The notes under the pieces are model-generated. The model was not told the origin of the DNA. It did no database searches and was given only the letters and a program-made list of their open reading frames with translations. The position numbers were made by a program, and so were the translations under genes. DNA of 64,000 bases, taken from the NCBI GenBank assembly GCA_030425425.1, contig JAUIAO010000004.1, positions 1-64,000 on the forward strand, in the 5' to 3' direction. This document shows positions 1-7,190 of this stretch, piece after piece (positions within the stretch are counted from its first letter, which is position 1; the number at the start of each line of letters is the position of its first letter). The stretch is from Bacteroidia bacterium. GTDB taxonomy: Bacteria > Bacteroidota > Bacteroidia > Cytophagales > Cyclobacteriaceae.

Positions 1-122
1 ATGTAACGACGAAAAGTTTGAATGAAGTAAAAAGTCCGCTTGATATGATGTAGCGATGGGGTATATTTGAATATCGGGTAACGCGCATAGTGCGCGTTGC
101 ATTAATGTTGGGCATAATTAAA

Positions 123-1802
123 ATGAAACGAGAGAATATATATCCTTATGAAATGTCTGAGGAAAAGGAAAAGCGACTTTGGGATACAGCCATTTTCGTA
201 TTTGATTCCTCTGCATTGCTAGACTTTTATTTTCTACCCACCCAAACACGTCAAAATATTTACATTAAAGTATTCAAGGAATTAACTGATAGATTATGGA
301 TACCAAATCATGTTGAATACGAGTTTTTAAAAAACAGGGAGAGTTCAATAGGAAATCCAATTTCTGAAAAGTATACGCCGCTAAGGACTAAAATTCAGAA
401 TTTGGAACAATCTTTTTTATCTGAAATTTTTAAACGAATTGAGGAAATCTCACGGGAAACTGCTAAGGATGATAAGCACCCGCATATTGAACAATCGGAA
501 ATTGAATTGATTAAGAATCAATCAGAGGAATATAAAAAAGAGCTAAAAAAATTTCAGGAAGCAGTTATTAAACGCATAAAAAAGGCAGAAGAGGAGATTA
601 TAGATGTAAAGGCCAATGATGATCTACTAAAAGCCCTTGAAGATTTTTTTACTGTTGGTGCCGAATACGATTTTGAGAAAATACTTGAAATAACGAAAGA
701 AGGAAAACATCGGTATGAGTTTAAAATTCCACCTGGTTACGGAGACTTAACCAAGAAAGAAAAAAAAGGAACTCAAATATTTGGTGATTTAATTATCTGG
801 AAACAGATTTTAGATTTCTCGAAAGAAATGGAATTACCAATTGTATTCATAACAAATGACATCAAGAAGGATGAAGATTGGTGCTACTTAGATAAGACAG
901 CAACGGAAGATAGAATCTTAGCTCCTAGAGAAGAATTAATAAAGGAGATCAGAGATCATTCTAAAGTAGAATTCTGGATGTACAATCTTCCTCAATTCCT
1001 ATATCATGCAAATAACTATCTGAAAGCAGAAATTAAAGAAGAGACAATCCAAAATGTCTCACAGTTTCTGAATACTAAAGATCAGAAAGAGGATTATCTA
1101 AAATTCCAATGCAACAGTTGTGGCTTAATTCATTCTTATCACAAATCCGAATTTGATTTAGAGTTTGAATGTATTGATAGCTCTGACAGAAACATGGGGC
1201 CAGAAAACCACTATGAAGCTATTGAACACTTTATGTGTGAATGTGGAAACGATATAACAGCTTCATTTAATATTTGGGAATATCCGACCGGAATACACAA
1301 TTACGATTCCATAGAATTGGAGGGAGCGAAACTACTCGCATCGTTTTATTTCACCATCGATTTTTTTGAGGGTGAGTACGAACCCGATCTAACTACTTGT
1401 GAAGTTTGTTCGGGGAACAAGGATGAAATGGGTAACATGGTTGATTTTTATTCTAAAATCGACTTAGTTAACGATTATGATAAGTCTCATGAGAACCATA
1501 AATTCCAATCGGTAATAAGTGGTAGCTGTGATTGGTGCAGTACTTTTCATTTTCGTTGTGCTAAATGCAATTCAATTAACGCCATACCAGACACAAATTA
1601 TGATGAACAGCATGAATGTGAAGGAGGATGTGGATTAATCTATTTTGTTGACACGAGTGATGACCATGATTACGTTGGTGAATTTGAACTTCGATTAATC
1701 GATCATCGTCTGACAAAATGCACAGGTTGCGGATCGGAATTTATTGACGAAGGATCAACAGGAATGTGTGACAAATGTGAAGATGAATACAATGACAAAT
1801 AA
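123..1802 (+). CDS. PIN-like domain protein with several C-terminal CxxC zinc-ribbon motifs (cassette 1)
   Basis: N-terminal FVFDSSALLDFYFLP... and IVFITNDIKKDEDW resemble PIN-like (DUF4935/PIN_8) proteins; then CNSC, CEC, CEVC, CDWC, CAKC, CTGC, CDKC pairs. The ATG at 123 is preferred to the GTG at 90 because the cassette starts at ~107. Confidence 0.75.
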   Translation: MKRENIYPYEMSEEKEKRLWDTAIFVFDSSALLDFYFLPTQTRQNIYIKVFKELTDRLWIPNHVEYEFLKNRESSIGNPISEKYTPLRTKIQNLEQSFLSEIFKRIEEISRETAKDDKHPHIEQSEIELIKNQSEEYKKELKKFQEAVIKRIKKAEEEIIDVKANDDLLKALEDFFTVGAEYDFEKILEITKEGKHRYEFKIPPGYGDLTKKEKKGTQIFGDLIIWKQILDFSKEMELPIVFITNDIKKDEDWCYLDKTATEDRILAPREELIKEIRDHSKVEFWMYNLPQFLYHANNYLKAEIKEETIQNVSQFLNTKDQKEDYLKFQCNSCGLIHSYHKSEFDLEFECIDSSDRNMGPENHYEAIEHFMCECGNDITASFNIWEYPTGIHNYDSIELEGAKLLASFYFTIDFFEGEYEPDLTTCEVCSGNKDEMGNMVDFYSKIDLVNDYDKSHENHKFQSVISGSCDWCSTFHFRCAKCNSINAIPDTNYDEQHECEGGCGLIYFVDTSDDHDYVGEFELRLIDHRLTKCTGCGSEFIDEGSTGMCDKCEDEYNDK

Positions 1803-1805
1803 ACT

Positions 1806-1915
1806 ATGCCCAACAAAAAATGAATATGCGAACTGAGACTTTAGATATGACAATGCGAACAGGATACTTCAGTGCTTCTTGCAACTGGAGCGCATACTCA
1901 TTTTAGGCGTTGTAG
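1806..1915 (+). repeat. attC-like site 1 (short, ~110 bp)
   Basis: ATGCCCAAC...GTTGTAGC; the left arm AAAATGAATATGCG pairs with CGCATACTCATTTT near the right end. Confidence 0.85.
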
Positions 1916-1934
1916 CGCATCGGCGGAACGCATA

Positions 1935-2360
1935 ATGAACGAATACAAAATCAAGAAATACTACATTACTCTAACTGCCATAAACGTGGTAATTGCGGTG
2001 ATTCTCGCATTCCTCCCGAGTGAACTGGAAATATCCGAACGTTTAACGCTTGCAATTAAAGTCAACATTCTATTTCATCTAATCTACCAGATGATAAGCC
2101 GAATTTTCATTTGGGTTTATGAACAAGCAACCAAGGATCACCCTAACGGTTTAAGGTTTGCAATTAAGTTCTTCACGGCATTTGCAATTGCGATAATGAT
2201 TTTGCCTTTATTGTCAGCAGTCTTCGTGCTCAAATCGGCTTTCTTCGAACAAGAATATCAACACCTATTTAATCTCATTTTTCTCTCAGGAATTGTTCTC
2301 GGTGGGTATTCCATGAAATCAAAATTTAAGGCTAAACTTACTCCAAGAACAACTAGCTAA
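1935..2360 (+). CDS. Hypothetical membrane protein (cassette 2)
   Basis: Open frame from MNEYKIKKYYITLTAINVV; several hydrophobic segments. The upstream ATG at 1872 lies inside attC1. Confidence 0.6.
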   Translation: MNEYKIKKYYITLTAINVVIAVILAFLPSELEISERLTLAIKVNILFHLIYQMISRIFIWVYEQATKDHPNGLRFAIKFFTAFAIAIMILPLLSAVFVLKSAFFEQEYQHLFNLIFLSGIVLGGYSMKSKFKAKLTPRTTS

Positions 2361-2451
2361 CAAGCTGACGGAACGACATCCGAACCCCGAACAACGAAGG
2401 AAGAAGAGATTCTTCTGTACTTCCGAACAACCCATAACGGACGAAAGAAAC

Positions 2452-6386: not shown

Positions 6387-6390
6387 AAAC

Positions 6391-6664
6391 GATATGTAAA
6401 CAACTAAGGCTCTGTGTGGTCGGTACGACCCAGCATAGAGCCTTAGTAGAACGAAACCACGGTTGATCTGAGATTAGATAGTATGGGCTTCACCATGAAA
6501 TCTGCCCCTGGGAAATGTCAGTGCTTTCTACATACTTCTGTTCGCAGGGTTTTTTCTCTTTCTGAACGCAGTGGTTATATGATACTTTGGAAGCACCGGC
6601 TGATTTCACTAGATTAGTGCTTTTAGCAGCTGGCGGGCATACAATCGCTAGCTGAACATTAGCA
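6391..6664 (+). repeat. attC-like site 6 (long, contains an extra hairpin)
   Basis: GATATGTAAACAAC...; shared GTCAGTGCTTTCTACATACTTC, TTTCTGAACGCAGTGG, ACTTTGGAAGCACCGGC, GATTTCACTA, GGCGGGCATACAATCGCTAGCTGAACATTAGC. Confidence 0.75.
6404..6446. repeat. Inverted repeat/hairpin
   Basis: CTAAGGCTCT GTGTGGTCGGTACGACCCAGCAT AGAGCCTTAG: 10-bp perfect outer arms plus an inner imperfect stem. Confidence 0.8.
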
Positions 6665-6677
6665 GTGATTCGTCGCA

Positions 6678-7175
6678 ATGAGAAAATTAATCGTTACCAT
6701 TTTTGTAATTCTCAACTTACCGACTTTTGGGCAGACAGGAACAATCGACGGAACTGTAATTGATAAGACTGATTCGTCTAACCTAGCCGGACTACCTATC
6801 GTGATTGTTGGCACTAGAACCGGAGTGATAACGAACAACGAAGGATACTTTAAATTATCTAACCTCCAACCTGGAACTTACGATCTCGCTTTCCAATTTA
6901 TCGGTTTAGGAGAAGATACAGTAAGGAATGTGAACGTAGTGGCGAACGAGGTAACAACATTGAATCTCGGACTACCAATTGGAGATTGTTCAGGGAACAA
7001 ACCGAAGAACTGTCCAATTGACGGTAGCACATCTGAAGTAATCCCTATTATTTACGGGCTTCCGGGCAACAAACTGATGAAGAAAGCTGAACGTGGCAAA
7101 GTCAGACTCGGTGGATGCATCGTAACTGGTTGCGACCCACAGTGGTATTGTGAACGACATAACCACAAATATTAA
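6678..7175 (+). CDS. Secreted protein with CarboxypepD_reg-like beta-sandwich (cassette 7)
   Basis: MRKLIVTIFVILNLPTFGQ signal; GTIDGTVIDKTDSSNLAGLPIVIVGTRTGVITNNEGYFKLSNLQPGTYDLAFQFIG. Confidence 0.75.
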   Translation: MRKLIVTIFVILNLPTFGQTGTIDGTVIDKTDSSNLAGLPIVIVGTRTGVITNNEGYFKLSNLQPGTYDLAFQFIGLGEDTVRNVNVVANEVTTLNLGLPIGDCSGNKPKNCPIDGSTSEVIPIIYGLPGNKLMKKAERGKVRLGGCIVTGCDPQWYCERHNHKY

Positions 7176-7180
7176 AAAAC

Positions 7181-7190
7181 CACTGCCAAC
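7181..7190 (+). repeat. Solitary attC left half-site (terminal, truncated)
   Basis: CACTGCCAAC complements ATTAGCAGTG at the start of cassette 7 (6658) allowing two G-T-type changes; no right half follows. Confidence 0.55.

Follow-up and report, generated by a model that had tools for sequence, protein, structure and literature searches.

An array in Bacteroidia that is very probably an integron of undescribed type, with an integrase lacking the IntI patch

Known integrons and related elements

The closest described system to the array reported here is the integron (IntI/attI/attC). Both contain one-gene cassettes bounded by attC sites, an attI site beside the integrase gene, a G^TT core, and R''/R' and L''/L' boxes. 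In both, the bottom-strand fold is favored and resistance cassettes occur on plasmids. In known integrons, extrahelical bases direct strand choice (PMC2727003), and the IntI insertion has been described as essential for integron function (PMC8138268). The new system differs in that its integrase lacks the IntI patch and is co-directional with the array. Its attC sites have no conserved extrahelical bases and instead exhibit a conserved G·T wobble, a longer core and an invariant A at base 11. Within Bacteroidetes, Salinibacter ruber is the only species for which IntegronFinder 2.0 reported a complete integron (PMC9024848). Because surveys recognize integrons through the IntI patch and through attC models built on other taxa, the new system is invisible to them. 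We found no published account of Bacteroidia integrons in the open-access literature searched; subscription journals and preprints were outside the scope of that search.

The new integrase belongs to the protein family NF040815, 'site-specific tyrosine recombinase/integron integrase'. However, the family name implies no array, and we found no source tying NF040815 to attI/attC arrays in Bacteroidia. The integron-like YR subgroup (Smyshlyaev et al. 2021, PMC8138268) resembles the new integrase in being a simple YR, although membership of that subgroup has not been established and the paper calls the insertion essential for integron function. In Acinetobacter, a unit named xerD-tet(X3)-res-ISVsa3/ISCR2 has been described, in which 'xerD' is treated as a recombinase gene carried by ISCR2 (PMC7494873, PMC7530245). 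No link of this xerD-tet(X3) unit to integrons was found in the literature examined.

The array, its attI and its integrase

The window analyzed here is the whole stretch of 64,000 nucleotides at positions 1-64000 of one contig (C11) of a Bacteroidia genome (5.85 Mb, 121 contigs), and its base 1 is the contig end. The first-pass annotation described seven consecutive units, all on the + strand and each bounded by a pair of complementary cores, and our analysis confirmed both the units and the places of their cores (Table 1). The three weaker pairs, those of cassettes 5-7, are real but decayed. Read by eye, the cassette 5 pair has one mismatch near the core, and GTT is lost in cassettes 6 and 7 (CGA and CAT). 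The right end is not a further cassette but the end of an IS110-family element, with 95% identity to a sister-species copy that runs on into a transposase. The PIN_12-type gene of cassette 5 has a sister-species homologue with 81% DNA identity and an intact 153-aa frame. The Fic protein of cassette 6 resembles the SoFic defence family, and attC flanks are not recognisable around the homologue of this cassette in the sister species. An Rfam scan of the window matched no family and was uninformative.

Table 1. Coordinates of the array features in the window.
Feature	Position	Strand	Content
Integrase gene, 3' end	1..53	+	last 17 codons and stop, rest lost at contig end; translation …HVTTKSLNEVKSPLDMM*; within 114-bp exact match to the C91 gene
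attI	54..112	+	palindrome AACGCGCATAGTGCGCGTT 5' of G^TT crossover at 107-109; related copies on C91, C113, C93
Cassette 1	107..1908	+	PIN_8-domain protein (123-1802); core GTTGGGCAT
attC1	1806..1917	+	R'' ATGCCCAAC; arms AAAATGAATATGCG / CGCATACTCATTTT
Cassette 2	1909..2681	+	protein of unknown function (1935-2360), no Pfam match
attC2	2453..2690	+	about 240 nt; ~90% identical copies in sister species cover 2459-2685 only
Cassette 3	2682..3506	+	protein of unknown function (2695-3276)
attC3	3280..3515	+	
Cassette 4	3507..4359	+	DUF3885 protein (3527-4111)
attC4	4114..4368	+	L arms weak
Cassette 5	4360..5236	+	PIN_12-type gene in two frames (4415-4612, 4585-4863) and 53-aa ORF; weak core pair
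Cassette 6	5237..6655	+	Fic-domain protein (5352-6386); core decayed
Cassette 7	6656..7187	+	CarboxypepD_reg-domain protein (6678-7175); start core decayed; R'' CACTGCCAAC
IS110-family left end, truncated	7188..7290 (right limit approximate)	+	directly after last AAC

IS110-family ends or transposases and a group-II-intron-like reverse transcriptase were observed in or beside arrays, at window positions 7188-7290, in L193 (G003:C48) and at L043 10300-14200 (C10). An IS110 end after an AAC core and a group-II-intron-like reverse transcriptase recall IS1111-attC and group IIC-attC introns.

The first-pass annotation saw no integrase in view and predicted attI and an integrase to the left of the array. 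The prediction was borne out by window bases 1-112 and a copy on contig C91, and the first statement was wrong, as bases 1-53 encode the C-terminus of a tyrosine recombinase. An intact 293-aa tyrosine-recombinase gene lies on C91 (locus L038 2104-2985). Window positions 1-114 match C91 positions 2043-2156 exactly; this 114-bp match runs through the attI-like stretch and ends 5 bases past GTT, inside the cassette, where two different cassettes start. The overlap could reflect either two integrase loci or one attI with alternative first cassettes in the population. A second integrase, on contig C10, is followed by attI (core GTTGAGCGC), a cassette ending in core GCGCTCAAC and a second cassette (GTTAGGTTTCAT … AAACCTAAC).

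Segments resembling attI also occur without an integrase, at C113 4272-4338 and C93 24668-24717 and 46003-46050, some of them followed by cassettes. In the C113 copy and both C93 copies, homology runs exactly to GTT and then diverges, and the C91 copy shares a further GGGCA with the window past GTT. The break in homology at GTT fits putative insertion at G^TT. When Winogradskyella is compared to Arcticiflavibacter, homology of the integrase and attI likewise stops at the core. The attI palindromes are on average more stable than shuffled sequence. The array thus has an attI adjoining the integrase gene with insertion at G^TT, as integrons do. It had been proposed that cassettes never differing at the cores would refute an integron. 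They differ exactly at the cores within the genome, between species and between plasmids, which favors an integron. Mobility of the cassettes is supported by such sequence comparison alone; it includes no two strains that differ at one locus by the presence of a given cassette, and there is no experiment behind it.

The integrase matches the XerA-like model NF040815 just above its curated cut-off (222.3 and 226.3 bits; cut-off 220). It failed the IntI model TIGR02249, scoring under the cut-off and skipping profile positions 178-239, and residues ~181-243 of the IntI4 structure 2a3v have no counterpart in it. The catalytic-Lys motif and HxLRH are separated by 65-66 residues in 69 relatives (two of 70), compared with 107 in 11 canonical IntI of the same phylum. 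The IntI-specific patch that the first-pass annotation expected is therefore absent by patch distance, TIGR02249 and the 2a3v alignment, and the array is not a canonical IntI integron. In a phylogenetic tree, IntI is monophyletic (SH-aLRT 99) with the array-linked integrases outside, and these form a clade separate from host XerC/XerD. The deep order of the remaining branches is unresolved, and IntI was included from the same phylum only.

The C91 integrase has five extra residues (GPTIR) right after RHSFAT in the HxLRHSFAT box, and in a sister species (L056, G002) the integrase frame turns foreign at the same point. A common insertion target after RHSFAT is possible. Because the window copy is not fully assembled and the C91 copy carries the 5-residue insert, integrase activity in this strain is uncertain. 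The AlphaFold model of the C91 integrase has a mean pLDDT of 78, falling below 50 for residues 243-286. A divergent gene for a probable treble-clef protein of ~130 aa (CLxCGKxLxGRxDxxFCDAxCRN) adjoins the integrase on its 5' side in most of 17-19 loci, for example at L038 3049-3456 and L044 3068-3457 and also in L094, L088, L091, L133 and others. This protein has no Pfam or NCBIfam match above cut-off; it is possibly a partner or regulator of the integrase.

Core pairing and attC anatomy

If each cassette was once a circle closed at attC, then its end core should be complementary to its own start rather than to that of its neighbor, as the first-pass annotation had reasoned. We compared six variable positions beyond GTT/AAC between the start and end of each unit. 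In window cassettes 1-4, own start and own R'' match at 6, 5, 6 and 6 of the 6 positions, and cross-pairings match at 0-4. For related arrays, attCs were located with a covariance model (R1) that spans AAC…GTTR and is blind to the variable core bases. Of the 62 cassettes lying between successive R1 hits, own start equals own end at all six positions in 49/62, whereas control pairing across the same attC gives such a match in 4/62. These data bear out both the assignment of the core to its own cassette and the logic of the closed circle. The array thus has the defining layout of a cassette array, with an attC after each gene and a core complementary within the same cassette.

The start of the cassette follows the consensus GTT(G/A)NNNNN(A/C)A in 66 attCs, with base 11 being A in 66/66. 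Of 225 mismatches in the arms, 111 place an A in L'' opposite a C in L', and 9 have the opposite polarity; the A-C mismatch is present in 61/66 sites. The arm-finding score had no preference for the A-C mismatch; its partial credit went to top-strand G·T pairs. Read on the bottom strand, the A·C mismatch becomes T·G, and in 60/69 attCs this strand folds more stably than the top one. In 36 aligned sites, compensatory changes were found at 9/9 predicted stem pairs, and the mid-stem column pair 23/115 is G·T in 32/36.

An extra base in L'' is present in 36/36 canonical attCs beside IntI in sister classes, compared with 18/64 sites of the new type. The new attC therefore does not share the extrahelical L'' bases of the canonical attC, and the A-C mismatch dominates instead. 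That the patch and the extrahelical bases are both missing together suggests, by inference, that these two features of integrase and attC co-evolved. Folding no better than shuffled sequence had also been named as grounds for rejecting an integron. The circular form of most attCs folds well beyond shuffles (mean z -5.3), but window attC1 in its in-array form is weak (z -1.0 bottom, -1.5 top).

Distribution, tet(X) cassettes and proposed mechanism

A genome scan and chain search found arrays directly 3' of the integrase and on the same strand in about 25 named loci, with up to 10 cassettes, and a few of the one- or two-cassette chains may be chance. Cassette counts were 10 in Algibacter onchidii, 8 in Rufibacter sp., 7 in a Bacteroidota MAG, 6 in Flavobacteriaceae S0862, 5 in Winogradskyella ursingii and 4 in Arcticiflavibacter luteus, among others. 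An attC score of at least 19 was reached by 29% of the integrase ends tested, compared with 2% of control points and 1% of shuffles; the ends include non-Bacteroidota relatives without arrays. This simple score accepts GTT anywhere within 300 nt of the integrase (<=300 nt) and has a high null below 17. Therefore, we used it only at ~18 and above or in chains, and at that stage gave no weight to single weak chains in L081, L132 and L137. Because attC is symmetric, the chain detector scores an array nearly the same whichever strand it reads, and hence orientation was taken from the side of the integrase and attI and from the ORFs. No array could be detected for some members of the integrase family, and thus the family may also do other jobs.

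R1 fits attCs of 120-130 nt; it misses the window's own attCs of 105-240 nt and did find the C91 site. With E-values that are rough, R1 matched in 145/198 genomes of the window's class (E<=1e-5), in 26/60 IntI-bearing genomes of sister classes and in 0/12 genomes outside Bacteroidota. Eight sister-class stretches were inspected, and new-type arrays were present in four or five, two with a patch-less integrase beside them, indicating that the system reaches beyond the window's class. Canonical IntI was above the cut-off in 110/399 genomes across the phylum and in 1/396 in the window's class. One genome contains both systems, with new-type attCs a few kb from a canonical IntI and a canonical-looking attC (L247, G124:C1:1198001-1216000).

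tet(X) defeats the last-resort antibiotic tigecycline. We observed that tet(X) genes are cassettes of the new attC type on plasmids of Acinetobacter, Riemerella, Empedobacter, Sphingobacterium and Bacteroides fragilis (L231 6067-8240, FJ012881.1; L239, NZ_CP073240.1; L237; L240-L243). A plasmid search with the integrase found TnpF/'xerD' immediately ahead of tet(X3) or tet(X5) in Acinetobacter; this protein is 54% identical to the C91 integrase and lacks the N-terminus. Between 'xerD' and tet(X) lie the palindrome ATATACGCCATTTGGCGTATA and the core GTTATGTGCCATT. The Acinetobacter 'xerD' of xerD-tet(X3)-ISCR2 is thus a shortened member of this integrase family, with its attI and then the tet(X) cassette behind it, whereas the literature examined sees in the xerD-tet(X3)-res-ISCR2 unit an ISCR2-carried recombinase gene and not an integron remnant (PMC7494873, PMC7530245).

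The first 45 bases of the tet(X) cassette are identical after six different left contexts, with one substitution in Empedobacter falsenii. These contexts are the Acinetobacter attI, Empedobacter brevis, one shared by Riemerella copy 1 and E. falsenii, Riemerella copy 2, Sphingobacterium and A. indicus pBDT201-3, and all six break at G^TT. Gene order in pBDT201-3 is estT-tet(X) rather than tet(X)-estT. On plasmid pRCAD0416RA-1 of Riemerella anatipestifer, the array holds aadS, two copies of tet(X), lnu(I), blaOXA, estT, two phosphotransferase genes and a toxin-antitoxin pair; its attCs are 129-131 nt, and own-core pairs are intact in most, but not all, of its cassettes.

We conclude that the window's array is very probably an integron that is functional or was so until recently, one of a type undescribed in the literature searched, in which a XerA-like, patch-less recombinase acts at attI and attC by G^TT. 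The gene of this tyrosine recombinase lies immediately 5' of attI and is co-directional with the array. In the proposed mechanism, the enzyme would most likely bind double-stranded attI and the folded bottom strand of attC. Cutting at G^TT would let a circular, promoter-poor cassette enter at attI beside the integrase gene, and cassettes may be excised or shuffled at attC. As in canonical integrons, the active form of attC would probably be the folded bottom strand, with strand polarity probably set by the conserved A·C mismatch (a bottom-strand T·G wobble) and not by extrahelical bases. We observed the anatomy and its conservation, own-core pairing, covariation in the stems and junctions that change exactly at G^TT; we infer, without experiment, that the array-linked integrase is the acting enzyme, that a single strand recombines and that the wobble has this role.

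A canonical IntI acting in trans could have left the array behind as a CALIN. Arrays without an integrase are common in known integrons (PMC9024848, PMC9668308), and in G124 attCs of the new type occur close to canonical ones. We strongly disfavor this explanation and regard it as extremely unlikely, since a different integrase adjoins attI and the attC lacks the extrahelical bases seen in 36/36 canonical attCs of sister classes. In addition, with IntI in 1/396 genomes of the class and the attC type in 145/198, IntI cannot be the general driver. It is also very unlikely that host XerC/XerD, rather than the array-linked integrase, move the cassettes, a role that has been proposed for them with pdif modules. 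The recombinase does belong to the Xer/XerA kind and pdif modules exist in Acinetobacter (PMC7530245), but the sites are attI/attC-like, with G^TT and arms, and not dif-like (no dedicated search for dif sites was made), and a dedicated integrase in a separate clade lies 5' of attI across genera.

The repeats come after genes and are alike within a genome, as they would be in a passive array of REP/MITE-like repeats or terminator hairpins with no site-specific recombination. Yet each end core is complementary to the start of the same unit and not to that of the neighbor, junctions change exactly at G^TT, and both orders estT-tet(X) and tet(X)-estT occur, leaving a passive array scarcely credible.

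Returning to the patch-less integron, we consider it reasonably likely that integron function exists without the IntI patch. A second recombinase lineage with a matching G·T-wobble attC would then serve Bacteroidota as the cassette-capture system, and tet(X) cassettes would originally have travelled in it before ISCR2 carried them into Acinetobacter and Enterobacteriaceae. If this is true, integrons would be added to most species of a very large bacterial class, and the need for the patch and extrahelical bases in integron machinery would become directly testable. tet(X), lnu(I), aadS, estT and OXA-type genes on Bacteroidota plasmids would gain a capture mechanism that resistance tracking has missed.
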